In this document: one piece after another, positions 18,050 to 41,552 of the stretch
Layout of the letters: every line of letters starts with the position of its first letter
Numbering within the stretch: the first letter of the stretch is position 1
Source of the DNA: a virus
Length of the DNA: 41,552 nucleotides
IMG/VR virus record: IMGVR_UViG_3300024999_001276
Location: 1-41,552 of that record
Reading direction: 5' to 3' (one strand)
The notes under the pieces: generated by a model
Told to the model about the DNA's origin: nothing
Databases searched by the model: none
The model's input: only the letters and a program-made list of their open reading frames with translations
Translations under genes and position numbers: made by a program

Positions 18050-18721
18050 CTACCTCCTTAAAATCGAGTAGACATCTTTCTTTATTTCATCAATACTTGC
18101 GACAATGAAATTAAGTTCGCTTTTAATAGGCGGATTAAAATCCGTTACGACTAAAATAGTAGGAAATATAGCCGTCCTATCCTTAATGACTGCCCACTCT
18201 TCGTTGGTCCAATCGGAATCATAAATCTTTTGGTACTGCTCTGGTTTATTAAACCTCTTACTTGGACACCTCTCTATCTCGATAAAAACAACTTTTCTAT
18301 CCTTGCGTCCCGGCTCGATAAATATATCAACCATGGCATCTGCAAAAACAATTCCATCTAGGATTGAATAGCTCCACTTAAACTCAACGGTAACGCCCGG
18401 TGATTTTTGTTTAAGTAGCTCACAGTATACCTCGTTTATCATCAGGGTATGTTCTATGTTTATGGGCCTCTTGCCCACAAAATAGACGGAGGGAAGCTGC
18501 GGGGCATAAACCTTTTTTTTAATTCTTTCCTGTCTACAAAGTCGAGCTAGGGCATACTGGGCAATCCTTTTTGAAGATTTACGATCAACCATAATGATAT
18601 CCTCTATTTGCTTTCTAGTGAATGCCCTGCCCTTTTTTATTAACTTAACAATATGGTCGTCTCTGTCTTTCCCGAAAGAGTAGCAACTTGTGGCTAAGAA
18701 CTTTGTTAATCCCTCATTCAT
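18050..18721 (-). CDS. replication-relaxation family protein
   Basis: The 223-residue protein has an N-terminal winged-helix segment (residues 15-75: RDDHIVKLIKKGRAFTRKQI, then KSSKRIAQYALARLCRQERI). The C-terminal alpha/beta part has acidic and Lys motifs (DAMVDIFIEPG, KVVFIEIERCPS) recalling the replication-relaxation family of Firmicute plasmids and integrative elements. Those proteins sit with FtsK-type ATPases, as here, and are thought to act on DNA relaxation or initiation. SD GGGGAGGAG is good and it has its own promoter. Confidence 0.75.
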   Translation of the reverse strand: MNEGLTKFLATSCYSFGKDRDDHIVKLIKKGRAFTRKQIEDIIMVDRKSSKRIAQYALARLCRQERIKKKVYAPQLPSVYFVGKRPINIEHTLMINEVYCELLKQKSPGVTVEFKWSYSILDGIVFADAMVDIFIEPGRKDRKVVFIEIERCPSKRFNKPEQYQKIYDSDWTNEEWAVIKDRTAIFPTILVVTDFNPPIKSELNFIVASIDEIKKDVYSILRR

Positions 18722-18840: not shown

Positions 18841-20163
18841 TTATTTAGGGCTTTTCTGATAAACTGGGGGTTCATAGTGCCTTCCTACCATTATTTTTTT
18901 ATCTATTTCCTCCTTTATAATATTTTTAGGTGACTTGGTTACTTTATTCACAACCTCTGTTTGTGTAGATTGTGGCTTTTGGTAGGCTGACATGATGGAC
19001 TTGATATGCTTATTGTCGATGAAGGGGACTTGCACTAGGACCTCATCCTTGAATTTAAACAATGCCCTTCCCTCGATATCCTTATCAATCATCTTTGACG
19101 ATTCCCATTCATCTTCCCCTAATAGAACGCGAGCAGATACCGGATTGCATCGAAAAGCTACTACCGCACTAAAGTTATTTTTCATTGTACCTGAGACGAG
19201 ATTAGCTGTTGGACGATGGCAGGAAATTATAACATGCACTCCGGCTCCCCTGGATTCACCTGTTACCTTCGTCATTTTTTCGCGGGCCTTAGAAAAGTCT
19301 TTACCCTCCAACTTGGTCATTTCGTCGATATAGCAAACGATTCTAGGGAGTTTCTTGTCAGGATATTCCTCGTTGTAGGCCGCCAAATCATCACATTTGT
19401 ATTTCTTGAACAAGGCATATCTCTCGCCAATAATTACAGATAGATCGTCCATCATGCCCTCGACTTCTTCAGGACTCGTAATGGTCCTATCGACCAACAG
19501 TGGGTCTTCACCAAGCAATGCGGTCCCGTTGCCATGTTTGAGGTCACCTAACCACAACCTGCAATCATCACGGGTATACCTAATGTGTAGGGCAGCTAGT
19601 ATTAACCTCCCCAAGATACTCTTACCGCCTCCTGTAGCACCTCCGATCAAGAGGTGAGCACTATTTGAGCTAGCTAAATCCAGTTGCTCCAACCCTCTTC
19701 TTGACCATCCAAGGGGTATCCATAATCCCTTTTTCTTGGGTATGGTTTCGGCCTCGTTAGTGTAGTTAATTAGATCCAGAAGATGGCCGGACAATACAGT
19801 CAGCGAAAAATGAGCTTTCGGATCATTTTCTAGGAGTTTAAATAGGACTTCACTCTTCAGGTTGAACTCGATATCATTAATACTTTTGATTAGTTTGTCG
19901 TGTTTCAGACCATTCGGTATCCTGTATTTAAATACTCGATTATGACCATTCCATCCCTTGCTGATTAGCTTCGGGTATTCTTTCGAGATATGGTCTTTTC
20001 CACGTTCTTTGGTTTCTGTGCAAACATCATTACGTTTCCAGTTTTGCATGATCATATTTGGGCTATAATCCCTGTGTCCGGGAATATATCTTAGTGCAAA
20101 CCTCCCGATCATAACGATAGTATCCGAGAATAGCCCAATGATGTCAGGCTTAACGGCTGCCAC
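18841..20163 (-). CDS. FtsK/HerA-type DNA-translocating ATPase
   Basis: The protein of about 440 residues has the RecA-like core of FtsK/SpoIIIE/TcpA proteins. Walker A IGGATGGGKSILG lies near residues 174-184, LGDLKHGNG follows, and Walker B RIVCYIDEMTKLEG is near 275-288. A sensor region VIISCHRPTANLVSG comes next. No membrane span is visible, unlike true FtsK, so it is a soluble translocase. GTG at 20163 is preferred because AAGGAGGG is six bases upstream; the ATG at 20169 directly touches that SD. With the replication-relaxation and Rep genes it suits plasmid segregation or transfer. Confidence 0.88.
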   Translation of the reverse strand: MAAVKPDIIGLFSDTIVMIGRFALRYIPGHRDYSPNMIMQNWKRNDVCTETKERGKDHISKEYPKLISKGWNGHNRVFKYRIPNGLKHDKLIKSINDIEFNLKSEVLFKLLENDPKAHFSLTVLSGHLLDLINYTNEAETIPKKKGLWIPLGWSRRGLEQLDLASSNSAHLLIGGATGGGKSILGRLILAALHIRYTRDDCRLWLGDLKHGNGTALLGEDPLLVDRTITSPEEVEGMMDDLSVIIGERYALFKKYKCDDLAAYNEEYPDKKLPRIVCYIDEMTKLEGKDFSKAREKMTKVTGESRGAGVHVIISCHRPTANLVSGTMKNNFSAVVAFRCNPVSARVLLGEDEWESSKMIDKDIEGRALFKFKDEVLVQVPFIDNKHIKSIMSAYQKPQSTQTEVVNKVTKSPKNIIKEEIDKKIMVGRHYEPPVYQKSPK

Positions 20164-20251
20164 GGTCATCCCTCCTTGCTCTTCGTGAATCCCTTCGCTG
20201 ATGATAATTAATACTCCTTGCTATTTGTCCTATATTCCTGTTAAATTTAGG

Positions 20252-20283
20252 CAAAAAAAGAACCAGACACATCATGTCCGGCT
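20252..20283 (-). terminator. terminator of the MerR-like gene
   Basis: On the minus strand CCGGACA / TGTCTGG (one G-T pair) is followed by TTCTTTTTTT. The stop codon of the MerR-like gene lies in the loop. Confidence 0.8.
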
Positions 20284-20817
20284 GAATATCCTCTTCCATA
20301 GCGGCTTGTTGCGTTGCTTTTGTGCTTCTTTTATGTCGTTGAGTCTTTGTAATACCTCTCTATCCCTGTTCTCTGCGCCTATACGACCATCCTCGGCCCT
20401 CTCATGAAGATTTGCAAAACCTTCCTTAAACTCTGCCCGCATATCCTCAAGTTCCTCTTGTAGTTGGAGGATAATGCGATTCTGCTTAGTAAGTTCTTCG
20501 AGCAGAACATGGCGAATACTCTGCGCTAAATCCTCTTGTTGTACTACTTTTGTTTTGTTATTTTCTATCAAATCTGTTGAATTTGGTACGGCATATCCGT
20601 ACTTTTTATCGAGATTCTGCTTTATCTGGTCGTAATCAAGTCCTTCTTTATAATGTCGAGCAATAAGTATGAATAGCTCAATATTTGACTCGTCATATTT
20701 ACGATGCCGGCCTTCTCCTGATACTTTTAGATATTCCTCAAAGCGATCACGATAGAAGGCGGCAAGGCTGGCCCCGATTCCGGCTCCCTCCGCTATCTGC
20801 TTTAGTGTTAAATACAT
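20272..20817 (-). CDS. MerR-type HTH protein with coiled-coil tail
   Basis: The 181-residue protein has a winged HTH at 1-70 (LKQIAEGAGIGASLAAFYRD, then GRHRKYDESNIELFILIARH), linked to a long coiled coil (about 105-170) and a basic end. This shape is common on Firmicute plasmids and phage-plasmids, where such proteins are thought to aid partition or maintenance. The gene sits directly downstream of the iterons and DnaA boxes, so it may bind the origin. It is read in the same direction as Rep. Confidence 0.72.
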   Translation of the reverse strand: MYLTLKQIAEGAGIGASLAAFYRDRFEEYLKVSGEGRHRKYDESNIELFILIARHYKEGLDYDQIKQNLDKKYGYAVPNSTDLIENNKTKVVQQEDLAQSIRHVLLEELTKQNRIILQLQEELEDMRAEFKEGFANLHERAEDGRIGAENRDREVLQRLNDIKEAQKQRNKPLWKRIFSRT

Positions 20818-20833
20818 AATATTTCATCTCCCC

Positions 20834-21015
20834 TGTGGATAACTCATTAATAAGATAATATGTAGGAGGTTATTTATGTAAGTGTTATTTATGTATATGT
20901 AGATATGTCCAAAGTGGACAGATCGATGTGGCCAAAATGGACAGGCGGCGTGTGGCCAAAATGGACAGGCGGCGTGTGGCCAAAATGGACAGGCACTTTC
21001 TATACCTGTGGATAA
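20834..21015. other. probable origin of replication
   Basis: Perfect DnaA boxes (TGTGGATAA) lie at 20834-20842 and 21007-21015. Between them are an AT-rich stretch with two direct copies of TTATTTATGTA (20870-20880, 20885-20895) and four iterons (20907-20992). It lies between the Rep gene and the MerR-like gene. DnaA boxes, an unwinding-type AT-rich repeat and iterons beside a rep gene are the standard parts of an iteron plasmid origin. Function is inferred from this arrangement. Confidence 0.8.
20907..20992. repeat. four iterons with 23-24 bp phasing
   Basis: Cores start at 20907 (GTCCAAAGTGGACAG), 20930, 20954 and 20978 (all three GGCCAAAATGGACAG). The last three share a 24-bp unit including GGCGGCGTGT. 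Spacing of about two helical turns puts all cores on one DNA face. Each core has a small dyad (CCAAAATGG). Likely Rep-binding sites. Confidence 0.85.
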
Positions 21016-21027
21016 CTCCGAAGATGC

Positions 21028-21504
21028 CTATAAATGCTTACTATTTTCAATTAAATAATCATCCCATAACTTATTCAAGACTCCGTAATCTATGGTGTAC
21101 CACTTGGTATGATCTCCTTTATCTGCGTTAAGCTCAACGCTCACTATAACCATTAAGTCCTCAAGATCCTTTACCATCCTTCTTATTGTTCTAACCGACC
21201 ACCACGGGGATTGTTTGCGCCATTGCTCGTAAGTGTTATATACCCATCTCCTGCGCTCTATAACGACCCCTGATTCAGTGTTGAGCCAATAGTGTAGCTT
21301 TTGTACGAACACGGCTTTATCGAGTCCCAGAACCTTAACTAGTCTCTCCTGAATAACAACTAAGTGTCCATCATGTATTAGTAGATCAGATTTGTATTCG
21401 GACGACATTTTAGGAATATCTTTTTGCACAATAAAAAACCCCTGTCTATAAAATTGGGAATGGACAGGAGGTTCATATTTATGGTACATTATCTGTAACA
21501 ACAT
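21028..21504 (-). CDS. winged-helix replication initiator (Rep)
   Basis: The protein is of Firmicute plasmid/phage replication type: HLVVIQERLVKVLGLDKAVF, then QKLHYWLN, RRRWVYNTYEQWRKQSPWWS, VRTIRRMVKDLEDL and a C-terminal TKWYTIDY. These are the winged-helix initiator features of RepA_N or DnaD-like proteins. At 158 residues it is the N-terminal domain only. ATG 21504 has GGGAG upstream; ATG 21408 (MSSEYKSDLL) matches where the conserved domain begins but has no clear SD. An attenuator lies between the two, so translation may be coupled to termination. Iterons follow its 3' end. Confidence 0.75.
   Translation of the reverse strand: MLLQIMYHKYEPPVHSQFYRQGFFIVQKDIPKMSSEYKSDLLIHDGHLVVIQERLVKVLGLDKAVFVQKLHYWLNTESGVVIERRRWVYNTYEQWRKQSPWWSVRTIRRMVKDLEDLMVIVSVELNADKGDHTKWYTIDYGVLNKLWDDYLIENSKHL
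21424..21452 (+). promoter_or_regulatory. promoter opposing rep (antisense RNA promoter)
   Basis: TTGCAC, exactly 17 bases and TATAAA on the plus strand, inside the 5' part of the rep transcript. Start would be near 21459. Confidence 0.65.
21431..21473 (-). terminator. attenuator in the rep leader / early coding region
   Basis: On the minus strand AACC-bulge-CTGTC-type stem (GGTT...GACAGG pairing, ten pairs with one bulged base) is followed by TTTTTTATT. It lies after the first rep start codon and before the alternative one at 21408. It contains CTGTCCATT, which is part of the iteron sequence. Confidence 0.65.
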
Positions 21505-21570
21505 AAAAGTTTCTCCCGTTGGCCCCTTGAACGAAATCTTTGGTCGGATGCGTTCAAGGGGTTTTCCCTT
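21459..21570 (+). ncRNA. candidate antisense (ctRNA-like) RNA to the rep leader
   Basis: From the opposing promoter, transcription would run about 110 bases. It would end at a strong terminator: stem CCCCTTGAACG (21523-21533) / CGTTCAAGGGG (21551-21561), 17-base loop, then TTTTCCCTTTT. The RNA would be fully complementary to the rep mRNA leader, including its SD. This is the layout of copy-control RNAs that induce attenuation in inc18/pIP501-type plasmids. No transcript evidence is available. Confidence 0.6.
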
Positions 21571-21605
21571 TTCCCTAATTCGACAGGTTCAACCCGTATT
21601 CCTTT

Positions 21606-21634
21606 AAAATATTACCCGAAAAAATAAGTAACAA
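21606..21634 (-). promoter_or_regulatory. possible rep promoter
   Basis: On the minus strand TTGTTA, 17 bases, TATTTT. It lies in the 3' end of the 37-aa ORF and would start the rep leader near 21598, upstream of the antisense target. Confidence 0.4.
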
Positions 21635-21725
21635 ACTCATAGAGGTAAAGCGGGTCAAGTATAGTTAGTTCATCATCCACTACTATCCACTTAAAAAATC
21701 CTGCTAAATCGCGTTCAACAATCAT
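21612..21725 (-). CDS. 37-aa acidic hydrophobic peptide upstream of rep
   Basis: ATG follows AAAGGAAG by nine bases. The product MIVERDLAGFFKWIVVDDEL...LYEFVTYFFG is acidic and aromatic. It is read toward rep and ends just before the rep leader. It could be a copy-control or leader peptide. The rest of 21726-21834 holds a TATTAT -10-like box (minus strand, near 21752) and nothing else I recognise. Confidence 0.45.
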   Translation of the reverse strand: MIVERDLAGFFKWIVVDDELTILDPLYLYEFVTYFFG

Positions 21726-21834: not shown

Positions 21835-21877
21835 AAAAAAAAGTGAGCATCCGATGTATTTCGATTGGATGCTCACT
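21835..21877 (-). terminator. terminator of the XRE repressor gene
   Basis: An 11-bp perfect stem AGTGAGCATCC / GGATGCTCACT is followed on the minus strand by eight T. It insulates the repressor gene from the rep module. Confidence 0.92.
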
Positions 21878-21885
21878 AAAATATT

Positions 21886-22281
21886 CTATTTTGATTTCAT
21901 TTTTTTGATCGACTCCAGGAGATTGCGAAAGAAAACTGGGTCTATATCCTCGTTATATAAATCCTTGGCTAGCATAGCATATGGCAAGCTCTCCTGTTTG
22001 GCGAAGAACTCTATTACATCATCCGGTATATCAACGTTATTTAACTCGGTTAGTTTGCGCAGGGACATGATGTTGTTGTCCAGGAGATATGCCGAATCGA
22101 CTCCCAACGCCTTGGCTACCTTTTCTAAGGCCCGGATCGACATGTTGCTTTTTCCTGTTTCTGCATCAGACAAGTAGGATAAAGAAAACCCTGTTAGGTC
22201 GCGCAGATCGGCAAGTGTCATCCCTCTTACTGTTTCCCTAATATATCTAATCTTGTGGCCGTAGTCCATTTGACACACCAT
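21886..22281 (-). CDS. XRE-family repressor (CI-like)
   Basis: The 131-residue protein has an N-terminal HTH at about 8-68: GHKIRYIRETVRGMTLADLR, FSLSYLSDAETGKSN, IRALEKVAKALGV. The helical C-terminus (DDVIEFFAKQESLPYAMLAK) resembles SinR/SlrR-type oligomerisation regions, with no peptidase domain. It diverges from the Cro-like gene across a 200-base control region, so it is the likely lysogeny repressor. An internal ATG (MDYGHK) at 22269 is an alternative start. Confidence 0.82.
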   Translation of the reverse strand: MVCQMDYGHKIRYIRETVRGMTLADLRDLTGFSLSYLSDAETGKSNMSIRALEKVAKALGVDSAYLLDNNIMSLRKLTELNNVDIPDDVIEFFAKQESLPYAMLAKDLYNEDIDPVFFRNLLESIKKMKSK

Positions 22282-22452: not shown

Positions 22453-22496
22453 CAAAAACAAGTTATTCGGTATTACTTTAAAAGGGGGTGGATGGA

Positions 22497-22694
22497 TTGA
22501 CAATCGGTAGCCAAGTTCGCAAATATCGGAATAAAAAAGCATGGACATTAAGCGAGCTTGGAGAACGCGCAAAGCTCAAGGGAAATACTTTAAGTGATAT
22601 TGAAAATGATAAGTGCGACCCGAGCATAAAGTCGCTAAGAAGGGTAGCTGAAGCTCTTGAGATCGAAGTTGCCTGTCTATTCCAAACGGTGTAA
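22497..22694 (+). CDS. Cro-like XRE regulator
   Basis: A 65-residue HTH_3 protein: SQVRKYRNKKAWTLSELGER, NTLSDIENDKCDPSIKSLRR. TTG at 22497 is preferred because GGGGG lies eight bases upstream; the GTG at 22488 touches the SD. First gene of the rightward early operon and divergent from the repressor, so probably Cro. Confidence 0.8.
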   Translation: MTIGSQVRKYRNKKAWTLSELGERAKLKGNTLSDIENDKCDPSIKSLRRVAEALEIEVACLFQTV

Positions 22695-37037: not shown

Positions 37038-37832
37038 GTGTCAAAAGGTTGGATCAGTATACACAGGAAACTTCAATTCCATTGGTTGTGGGAAGATAAA
37101 CCTTTTAGTAAAGGACAAGCGTGGATAGACTTATTAATGTTAGCTAATCATGAAGATTCTAAATTCCTACTAGGAAATCAGCTTGTAGAAGCTAGTCGCG
37201 GAGACATAGTAACCAGTGAGGTCAAGCTCATGAATAGGTGGGGATGGTCGAACACTAAGGTTAGATCATTTTTAAATTTGCTAGAAAAAGATTCAATGAT
37301 TATCAAAAAAACAGACTCAAAAAAAAGTGTCCTGACCCTTACGAACTACGGCGTTTGGCAGGATTCAAAAAGTGAAAAAGAAGTGGAAAAAAAGTGCAAT
37401 AAAAGTGCGTTAGAAGTGGAAAAACATACAATCAATAACTCTAATAACTCTAATAACTCTAATAACTCTAATAAAGTATCTATTGACGGTTTTGAAGAAC
37501 TTTGGAAACTGTATCCGAAAAAAGAGGGCAAGGGACAGGTTAGTAAAACACAAAAGGAAAAATTGGCCAAGATTGGTATCGAAGAAATGACAAGGGCTAT
37601 TAGCAGATACGTCCAAGCTAAAAAAGGCAAGGATAAGCAATATCTTCAGAATGGAAGCACATTCTTCAATAGTGGCTATGTAGATTACTTGGATACAAAT
37701 TATCAGGATGGGGGATTAAGTGGTGGAAATAACGGCAGTAAATCCAATGCAATCAATCAAGGAAATCTTAAACCTTGGGAAACTGACCCATACCTCGCCG
37801 ACATCCTCGGAAGAAACGAGAAAGAGGCTTAA
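37038..37832 (+). CDS. phage replisome organiser (DnaD-like)
   Basis: The 264-residue protein has an N-terminal winged helix of phage initiator type (WISIHRKLQFHWLWEDKPFS, KGQAWIDLLMLANHEDSKFL, then WGWSNTKVRSFLNLLEKDSM). A low-complexity Asn-Asn-Ser linker (around 134-147) follows, and then a DnaD-like C-terminal domain ending near LQNGSTFFNSGYVDYLD. It likely loads DnaC/DnaB at the lytic origin. GTG start with AGGGGTG upstream. Confidence 0.82.
   Translation: MSKGWISIHRKLQFHWLWEDKPFSKGQAWIDLLMLANHEDSKFLLGNQLVEASRGDIVTSEVKLMNRWGWSNTKVRSFLNLLEKDSMIIKKTDSKKSVLTLTNYGVWQDSKSEKEVEKKCNKSALEVEKHTINNSNNSNNSNNSNKVSIDGFEELWKLYPKKEGKGQVSKTQKEKLAKIGIEEMTRAISRYVQAKKGKDKQYLQNGSTFFNSGYVDYLDTNYQDGGLSGGNNGSKSNAINQGNLKPWETDPYLADILGRNEKEA
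37434..37469. repeat. four tandem copies of AATAACTCT
   Basis: The 9-bp unit gives the NNS repeat in the replisome organiser. Phage initiators often hold lytic-origin repeats inside their own gene, so these direct repeats may be part of an origin, or only a linker. Confidence 0.7.
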
Positions 37833-37833
37833 T

Positions 37834-38589
37834 ATCTTCAATATTGGGACTGGATACAGTCTGAAACCAGTAGAAAAAGTCTTTACCTGTAAAGAGTGCG
37901 AAGACCGAGAAATAGTAGCTGTTGGGCTAGACCCCTACGGATTAACTCTTTACGCAGATTGTATTTGCAAGGTCAAGAAGAACGCAGCCCGAAAGCTTAA
38001 ATCATCAGGATTAACCACGCAACAACTAAGATACAACATAGCTAATTACAAAGTTAACAATGAGAACCGCAATATGTTCCAGGGAGTTGAAAGATACCTA
38101 AAGGCGTGGCCTGACTTGATAAAAAGCTCATCTGATACCAAAGGGTTCTTACTGATGGGTAATGCAGGGATCGGAAAAACGATGTTAGCCAGCATAATTG
38201 CAAGGGACATGCTCGACAAGGGAATTCAGGTTGTGTTTGTATCATCTGCTGATTTATTAGCCGAATTAAGGGATGCCCAATTCAGAAAAGACGAGGGTGG
38301 TATAGAGGCTAAGATAGAAACTTTAGCCAAGGCTCAAGCGTTGATACTTGATGATATAGGCAAAGAAAAGCCTACCGAGTGGGTTCAAGGAATGTATTAT
38401 CGCCTGATTGACCTTAGATACCGAAACAACCTGCTTACTGGATTTACGACGAATTATTATCCTAAACCGTTGGAAGAAAGATTGGGGGATTACGGAGAAG
38501 CAACGGTGTCCAGAATTTTGGGAATGACTGTTGATTATCTGCTTTACGCCAAGGATTACGATCATAGGACAAAAAAAGATGTCCTATAA
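37834..38589 (+). CDS. dnaC: DnaC-like helicase loader
   Basis: AAA+ loader: an N-terminal zinc-type segment CKECEDREIVAVGLDPYGLT...DCICK, Walker A LMGNAGIGKTMLAS (near residue 107), Walker B ALILDDIGKEKPT (near 168), and a C-terminal TGFTTNYYPKPLEERLGD. It loads the DnaB-type helicase. The open frame runs back to ATG 37720 and 37747, both without SD and deep in the organiser gene. AGAGG six bases before an ATC at 37834, two bases after the organiser stop, is the best-placed start. Confidence 0.85.
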   Translation: MFNIGTGYSLKPVEKVFTCKECEDREIVAVGLDPYGLTLYADCICKVKKNAARKLKSSGLTTQQLRYNIANYKVNNENRNMFQGVERYLKAWPDLIKSSSDTKGFLLMGNAGIGKTMLASIIARDMLDKGIQVVFVSSADLLAELRDAQFRKDEGGIEAKIETLAKAQALILDDIGKEKPTEWVQGMYYRLIDLRYRNNLLTGFTTNYYPKPLEERLGDYGEATVSRILGMTVDYLLYAKDYDHRTKKDVL

Positions 38590-40190: not shown

Positions 40191-40226
40191 GTGAAAGTAA
40201 TTTTGAAGCAGAGTCCGTATGGATAA
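40191..40226 (+). CDS. 11-residue coupled leader peptide
   Basis: GTG start six bases after GGGAGG; product MKVILKQSPYG. Its stop lies just past the ATG of the sigma-like gene, so translation of the two would be coupled. The sigma-like gene itself has only a weak SD. Confidence 0.35.
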   Translation: MKVILKQSPYG

Positions 40227-41552
40227 TAACCCTCACCTACCCGGTACGGCAGACGAGTTCATTGAAAATAACCTTGGATTGGCGCAAAAAGAAGCATGGA
40301 GATTTATCAAGTGGATAAGCAGGGATGAGGAAATAAAGTTTGATAAAGACGATTTACTGAGTATTGCGTACATGGGACTCGTAAAAGCTTATCAAGGGTA
40401 CGATCCAACAAGGTTTACAGGAGAAAACGGTGGGAAAATAAAGTTCTCGACATATGCGGTGCCAATGATAAAAGGAGAATTGCGGAGGCATATAAGGGAC
40501 TTAGGGCACACAGTAAGGAGACATAGAGACGGAACAGGAATTAATAACATCGACAGCCTTGATAGGGAGATAAGGGACGATGAAAGTAGCGCGCAAACAG
40601 TAGGGGATACGATCAATATTGAGAGCTATGAAATCGAATATCAGGCGATTGTAAATGATTTTGTTCGCCAACTTGATCCAAAATTACAAAAAACATACAA
40701 GCTTTTGACGCTTGGTAAAACACAAAATGAGATAGGTAAGTGTTTTGGGATAAGTCAGGTGCAGGCCTGGAGAATGGTAAATAAGCTCCTTGATTTAGCG
40801 AAACAGTATGGAGAGAAGGGGAATGAGGATATGGGTAGGGAAATATCGCCAGAAACAAAACTAATGCGTGAGGAGGTTGATACCTTTGCTAAATTTGGCG
40901 CAATTGGAACCTACGAAGATATTGCGAGTAAGTATGGGGTTGGGAAAGGTACGGCTTACTCTTGGATGAGGAAGCTTATGGATGGAGGGGTTGTTGAAAA
41001 GGCGGAAGTTACTGAGGTGACGAAGATGGAAACTACTCCATTCGAGATACCTAACACGCCGGGGAATTATGAGGCGATTGATAAGCTAGTAGAAGGCACA
41101 GAAGCACTATCAGAGGCTAGTAAAGAGGACGAGGGTGGCATTGTTACGGAGGGAGACGGTGAAGGACATAGAATTGCATTTGAGGAATATTTTAAAGTTG
41201 AATTCGATGAACAAAATCGCGTGCCCGTATGCCTTGGGGGGTATGATCCTATTACGTATTGTTGTAGGGATTGTACGGACAACGTTGAATGCAAGGAAGC
41301 GTCCAATAAGGTTAAAGGCAAGGAAACCATTGACGATCTTGGAGGATTGGCAGAGCCGGAACCGGGGTGGAATCCTGAACGTGAAGGGGAATCGGCATCT
41401 AAAATGTTTTCATTGCCTAGTGGTGCAGAGGAACCGATGATTGCAAAGCCACAAACTCCTGACCAAATGTGGGTGCATGTTGCTTATTTCTTAGGGGCAA
41501 TTAAGCAGCATGGAATAAGGCAGGTAGAGGAAGATATACAGGATAGGATTAA
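40219..41552 (+). CDS. phage sigma-70-like factor with extra HTH and Cys motif, 3' truncated
   Basis: The frame is open from ATG 40219 to the window end (444 codons). Residues 41-100 match sigma region 2 (LLSIAYMGLVKAYQGYDPTR, FSTYAVPMIKGELRRHIRDL). Near 150-190 is a region-4 HTH (LGKTQNEIGKCFGISQVQAW). A second HTH near 228-250 (YEDIASKYGVGKGTAYSWMR) and an acidic spacer follow. A Cys cluster (YCCRDCTDNVEC) lies near 350-362, and the tail is still open. It should redirect RNA polymerase to late genes. Long size and extra domains are unusual for sigma factors. Confidence 0.8.
   Translation, partial: MDNNPHLPGTADEFIENNLGLAQKEAWRFIKWISRDEEIKFDKDDLLSIAYMGLVKAYQGYDPTRFTGENGGKIKFSTYAVPMIKGELRRHIRDLGHTVRRHRDGTGINNIDSLDREIRDDESSAQTVGDTINIESYEIEYQAIVNDFVRQLDPKLQKTYKLLTLGKTQNEIGKCFGISQVQAWRMVNKLLDLAKQYGEKGNEDMGREISPETKLMREEVDTFAKFGAIGTYEDIASKYGVGKGTAYSWMRKLMDGGVVEKAEVTEVTKMETTPFEIPNTPGNYEAIDKLVEGTEALSEASKEDEGGIVTEGDGEGHRIAFEEYFKVEFDEQNRVPVCLGGYDPITYCCRDCTDNVECKEASNKVKGKETIDDLGGLAEPEPGWNPEREGESASKMFSLPSGAEEPMIAKPQTPDQMWVHVAYFLGAIKQHGIRQVEEDIQDRI

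Follow-up and report, generated by a model that had tools for sequence, protein, structure and literature searches.

In pT181, the leader of repC is the target of an 87 nt antisense RNA and contains a pre-emptor that competes for the 5' arm of a terminator, which includes the ribosome-binding site (RBS) and lies before the start codon (PMC5703833). The Inc18 plasmids pIP501 and pAMbeta1, which are theta plasmids, combine antisense attenuation by RNAIII on a long leader with CopR, and have a separately transcribed XRE-type repressor gene upstream (PMC5703833). In pSK41 and other RepA_N plasmids there is an antisense RNA on the leader and a winged-helix initiator structurally similar to DnaD, and in the chimeric Rep of pPR9 the N-terminal domain of the initiator has been swapped for a phage-type HTH_36 domain (PMC5703833). 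Mycobacterial extrachromosomal prophages, with RepA or RNA origins, are temperate and carry a rep/par cassette in place of an integrase, with no antisense attenuator described there (PMC7157519). Searches of open-access papers turned up no account of antisense attenuators on the initiators of phage-plasmids.

Here we describe a replication module at positions 20834-21602 of an IMG/VR virus record, an incomplete metagenome contig of 41,552 bp (hereafter the window). We consider, with a probability of roughly 0.83, that the module provides lysogenic plasmid replication and copy control for a temperate phage probably maintained as a plasmid, and that a pT181-type antisense attenuator sets the synthesis of its initiator, Rep. 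The leader resembles that of pT181 in the size of the antisense RNA (about 70 versus 87 nt), the pre-emptor and the RBS-containing terminator. However, the small plasmid pT181 replicates by the rolling-circle mode from a Rep_trans initiator, whereas the window has a phage-type winged helix, iterons, DnaA boxes and an additional pairing in the leader (P:A, below). The likeness to pIP501 and pAMbeta1 lies in the antisense attenuation, the long leader and the upstream XRE-type gene, but RepR is of the PriCT_1 type, and the XRE gene of the window resembles a phage CI repressor. Because the initiator differs, we do not place the locus in the pT181 or pIP501 plasmid families, although the mechanism appears to be alike. 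The RNAI of pSK41 acts on translation and not on termination, and Reps of the RepA_N type keep a C-terminal domain that is absent here. The mycobacterial extrachromosomal prophages likewise have other initiators. The same N-terminal DNA-binding domains occur in the DnaD-like and O-like initiators of phages (phrog_6493, 678, 7882, and 428), several of which have adjoining iteron palindromes.

The window has tail-side and lysis genes, including an endolysin; no head genes and no terminal repeats were found in its 41,552 bp, and blastn against phage records gave no match. A block on the minus strand comprises a CI-like XRE gene, a 37-aa ORF, rep, the iterons, and genes for MerR-like, FtsK-like and replication-relaxation-like proteins. 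The CI-like repressor gene (21886..22281) lies upstream of rep on the same strand, is followed by a terminator-like hairpin (21835-21874), and is divergent from a Cro-like HTH gene on the plus strand (22488..22694; phrog_3, E=4e-10). At the other end of the block are the FtsK/SpoIIIE-like translocase (18841..20169, minus strand; PF01580, E=1e-12) and the replication-relaxation-like protein (18050..18721, minus strand; phrog_2190), whose match to PF13814 falls just under the cut-off (E=6e-5). The 37-aa ORF (21612..21725, minus strand), which precedes the rep leader, is conserved among the initiator types described below and matched no family; in two other loci (L002 and L010) it is longer and its end is hydrophobic, possibly spanning a membrane. 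A separate DnaD-like loader and a DnaC-like helicase loader are encoded on the plus strand (37038..38589; phrog_2514 and phrog_50) and are the probable lytic replication module.

The rep gene named in the original prediction is borne out as an ORF for a 133-aa initiator (21028..21429, minus strand), which matches phrog_6493 with E=3e-28, though only over positions 5-110 of the 261 in that family. By this match, Rep is the N-terminal winged helix of DnaD/O-type phage initiators without their C-terminal domain. Its start is probably the GTG at 21429, and not the ATG downstream at 21408, since the spacing from GACAGGGG to GTG or ATG is conserved in all leaders. Most phage and plasmid relatives of Rep measure about 240-465 aa and have the C-terminal part, in contrast to initiators linked to the leader, which end at 123-173 aa. 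Shorter DnaD-like ORFs (121-160 aa) were also seen in L017, L021, and L063 (a Bacillus genome, a Lachnospiraceae MAG and a Lactiplantibacillus plasmid); these are possibly independent truncations or broken genes. A structure model of Rep gave a confident winged helix (pLDDT 84), for which Foldseek returned only generic winged-helix matches, with the DnaD N-domain at rank 40, and a sequence search of the PDB gave weak matches. Rep had no match to the rolling-circle initiator domain Rep_trans, matching DnaD-like phage families instead. Membership in the RepA_N plasmids was rejected, as there was no match to RepA_N (PF06970) at E<=0.5 and the protein stops after the winged helix.

Beside rep lie the parts of an iteron-type origin: tandem repeats, an AT-rich region and DnaA boxes, with Rep as the putative iteron-binding protein. 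All three had been predicted and were recovered. The four phased iterons (20906..20991, with starts at 20906, 20929, 20953, and 20977) are palindromic, TGTCCANNNTGGCCA-like, and spaced by 23-24 bp, each 24-bp unit containing a 15-bp palindrome. They are the only copies in the window; the rest of the 41.5 kb contains no such palindrome, and shuffled genomes had 0-1 each. Two perfect DnaA boxes, TTATCCACA, flank the iterons on the minus strand, one on the rep-proximal side (21007..21015) and one on the distal side (20834..20842), and both are present in all type I relatives, that is, loci with a Rep of this kind. Between the distal box and the iterons is an AT-rich stretch (20843..20905; 70-78% AT) of CATAAATAAC repeats with ACATATTATCTTAT, which is conserved in relatives and is the probable unwinding element. 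Hits to a pattern for this element in three further loci (L067, L070, and L077) were unrelated and were discarded.

Conservation of Rep and iterons, on which the prediction also depended, was found in five other distinct type I phage loci. In these, Rep is 72-90% identical, the DnaA boxes and the AT-rich motif are the same, and there are three palindromes each, at the same distance from rep, whose sequence has changed while the palindromic form is kept. In more distant dnaD-like genes (L011, L012, L015, and L018), a palindrome lies inside the gene, just past the winged-helix codons, and this position suggests that the module may have arisen when a phage initiator gene was cut at its internal origin.

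From its sequence, the leader of rep appears to be an attenuator of the pT181 type, in which four segments, P, A, T5' and T3', accompany a target hairpin, H1. From a conserved GGATAAT-like element (GGAATAC in the window; 21596..21602, minus strand) to the start codon the order is P, H1, A, T5', T3'. Segment P, CCTGTCGAATTAGG (21574..21587, minus strand), lies close to where the rep mRNA is predicted to begin, was present in 14 of the 15 aligned leaders, and contains CCTGTC, which is complementary to segment A. H1 (21523..21561) is the mRNA target hairpin and, read from the plus strand, the terminator stem-loop of the antisense RNA, with a T-rich tail to about 21572; a strong plus-strand terminator had been predicted, and this hairpin has z = -4.3. 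Segment A (21509..21519, minus strand) is the anti-terminator, or pre-emptor, strand and pairs with T5' (21462..21474, minus strand), the 5' arm of the attenuator terminator, in every leader. The 3' arm, T3' (21433..21446, minus strand), consists of GACAGGGG and a U-run, which agrees with the predicted terminator-like hairpin before rep, and GACAGGGG is probably also the RBS of rep. The possible pairings are thus P:A, A:T5' and T5':T3', and those that share a segment are mutually exclusive. Pre-emptor and terminator arms exclude each other, and the terminator overlaps the RBS before the start codon, as in the pT181-type mechanism. The GGATAAT-like element is possibly the -10 of the rep promoter, although no clear -35 accompanies it. 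Segment P was also considered as an operator for Rep, and this was rejected based on the fact that P is constant while the iterons change among relatives.

Support for these pairings comes from an alignment of 15 distinct leaders. The window and its relatives are metagenome contigs, and most of the relatives trace to a small number of metagenomes whose accession numbers are related. Across the alignment P:A is paired in 97.6% of cells and T5':T3' in 95.6%. Together, H1 and A:T5' have 29 double-changed cells compared with 10.9 +/- 3.0 in shuffles, none of 500 of which reached 29, and sliding the partner by a single column lowers pairing from 87% to about 51%. In H1, compensatory changes affect seven of the nine pairs, and each arm pairs best with its own partner (1 of 720 permutations). 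For A:T5' in the first six leaders, 17, 0, 1, 6, 12, and 20 of 500 shuffles were as good; the window's own pairing is among the weaker (-11.1 kcal/mol, 17/500). RNAalifold, run unguided, also proposes P:A, H1 and T5':T3'. The 141-nt leader as a whole had no significant folding z-score, which alternative structures could explain, and Rfam holds no family related to it.

Strand bias separates the two structures. When H1 is folded from each strand in the 15 leaders, all 39 G-U pairs fall on the plus (antisense) strand, the sense strand having none, and the antisense hairpin is the more stable in 15/15, by a mean of 6 kcal/mol. The T5':T3' stem is the opposite, with G-U pairs on the sense strand, and we infer that H1 evolves as an antisense RNA and the attenuator as mRNA. 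Since a generic consensus scan found promoters and terminators no commoner than in shuffles, we relied on comparison of the leaders, and the evidence for the promoter is comparative. The best plus-strand site is TGGACA-N18-TACATT (21461..21490), with an extended TG and its -35 on the T5' arm, and the best antisense promoter of each leader falls in identical alignment columns in 15/15. From this promoter and the H1 terminator we predict an antisense RNA of about 68-70 nt (21497..about 21566, plus strand), with its own promoter and terminator and complementary to the leader, an arrangement consistent with both sequence and covariation. It would cover A and H1 and, as attenuation requires, spare T5'. 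In most leaders the antisense loops contain UUUGGCGG or UUUGGUCGG, which, matched by eye, is of the YUNR type, a kind of sequence associated with U-turn loops when antisense RNAs pair, pIP501 being one example (PMC7430163).

These features can be assembled into the following scheme. Short Rep would bind the palindromic iterons, and DnaA at the two flanking boxes would help to open the AT-rich stretch and, given that Rep is without the C-terminal domain of its phage relatives, would bring the helicase machinery. On the nascent mRNA, pairing of A with T5' would act as anti-terminator and allow rep to be transcribed. The antisense RNA, roughly 70 nt, would be made in proportion to copy number; when it pairs with H1 and A, or when P captures A, T5':T3' could form, and this stem would both end transcription and hide the RBS.

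Plasmid-type copy control in a phage genome, the core of the original prediction, is thus well supported by covariation and by recurrence in other phages, yet its proposed details differed from the scheme above, and it overlooked both the C-terminal truncation of the phage-type initiator and the presence of the leader before unrelated initiators. It had placed the antisense promoter at TTGCAC-N17-TATAAA (21424-21452), giving a 110-base RNA that spans the whole leader including the attenuator, and it had suggested that Rep also binds the iteron-like CTGTCCATT and shuts itself off. Both the hexamers and the iteron-like match (21459-21471, within the attenuator, 12 of 13 bases) do exist. However, that promoter is neither the best site nor conserved, and an RNA starting there would bind T5' as well and could block the terminator, whereas the RNA of about 68-70 nt leaves the attenuator arm uncovered. 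The feedback part fares no better, since in relatives CTGTCCATT does not follow the iterons, which change, while T5' follows A and T3'; moreover, the leader with CTGTCCATT stays before an unrelated, type IV initiator in L131 and L132, and the type IV repeats differ (L094 and L097). We regard this version as very improbable. Hardly more probable is that H1 is a mere terminator without antisense regulation, and that the attenuator alone controls rep, for example via Rep, the ribosome or a ligand. H1 is indeed a good plus-strand terminator, but 15/15 leaders conserve the promoter together with the target hairpin and the terminator, the G-U bias shows selection on the plus strand as RNA, and no conserved gene was seen in the stretch of roughly 30 bases that separates promoter from terminator.

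A function in lytic replication or superinfection immunity, and not in plasmid maintenance, also seems unlikely, if slightly less so than either of these. Incompatibility is a necessary outcome of antisense copy control, and phage P4 achieves immunity through an RNA attenuator, both of which speak for such a role. Against it, the module is on the CI strand beside probable partition genes, and the separate DnaD/DnaC-like loaders are on the lytic strand. Control of plasmid copy number in the lysogen is the most likely reading.

Pattern scans for the leader showed that it precedes four types of initiator (I-IV), all without a helicase-recruiting C-terminal domain. A bare 16-mer of the H1 loop matched many contigs by chance, and only contigs with the full leader were retained; the leader pattern was absent from the 399 Bacilli genomes scanned. 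Type II initiators are O-like (PF04492 below cut-off, 128-129 aa), and types III and IV have HTH_36 (169 and 167 aa, respectively). By blastp, types I, II and III/IV are mutually without significant similarity, with III and IV weakly related to each other. Leader identity can nevertheless reach 91-93% between types, compared with 40-59% among type I leaders, and the window's leader shares 96% identity over 159 bases with the one that precedes the type IV initiator of L131 and L132. The leader therefore seems to move among phages independently of the initiator that it controls.

The four types also differ in what surrounds them. In types I and II, DnaA boxes flank the repeats and there is no KYEKFYL tail (in L080 one box is perfect and the others have one mismatch). 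Types III and IV end in KYEKFYL, complete in L081, L094, L097, L105, and L131, and have no perfect DnaA box within 1.4 kb (L085 was readable for 403 bases only; L094 has one single-mismatch site). We tentatively propose, with somewhat less than even confidence, that loss of the helicase-recruiting domain is offset by host DnaA at the flanking boxes in types I and II, or by docking of a replication protein on KYEKFYL in types III and IV, and that one attenuator governs at least four initiator types that have only a DNA-binding domain in common, with initiator, recruitment mode and copy control independently exchangeable. As types III and IV are weakly related, the tail that they have in common may simply be inherited.

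The window combines virion genes with plasmid replication and partition genes (rep and a probable par) on one element, as is the case in phage-plasmids. The probable par is the MerR-like gene (20272..20817, minus strand), encoding a MerR-type HTH (Pfam MerR_1, E=4e-4, below cut-off), a probable coiled coil and a basic/aromatic C-terminus. pSK1 Par, RocS and RacA have a MerR-type winged helix followed by a coiled coil, beside rep (PMC11500499), an arrangement that the window may share, although the MerR_1 match here is sub-threshold. The gene adjoins rep in most loci, and the fact that ParA takes its place next to rep in L105 makes a partition role likely; we consider it a probable single-protein partition factor like pSK1 Par. 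Four related contigs (G001, G004, G006, and G007) have terminase and/or portal genes with differing virion modules, G007 being siphovirus-like with a tape measure gene and a tyrosine recombinase. The window, an incomplete contig whose missing part could contain an integrase, yielded neither a tyrosine integrase nor a serine resolvase, and searches of G001, G003, G004, G006, G009, and G012-G018, which are also incomplete contigs, turned up no tyrosine integrase. The only integrase-like gene of the group is the tyrosine recombinase of G007/G008 (L053:6742-7674), about 1.3 kb from rep, which could serve in dimer resolution or integration.

Plasmid RNA copy control would here be joined to phage initiators, with the same RNA brake on unrelated replication starters, and this suggests that the leader is an interchangeable part that phages use for plasmid life. 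Nature thus supplies 17 distinct leaders that fall into about five loop types, and with them it can be tested whether initiation and copy control evolve apart, how an initiator works when it lacks a helicase-recruiting domain, and whether antisense loops define incompatibility or superinfection groups among phage-plasmids. The leaders may also be useful as RNA switches.

Three other features of the window deserve mention. Within the lytic DnaD-like gene are four tandem 9-bp AATAACTCT repeats (37434-37473), possibly a second (lytic) origin or a simple repeat. In the early region, the protein encoded at 35755-36150 matches phrog_997, annotated as a replication terminator (E=6e-31). Lastly, an ORF that runs off the window end (40219-41552) matches phage RNA polymerase sigma factors (phrog_351, E=5e-38).
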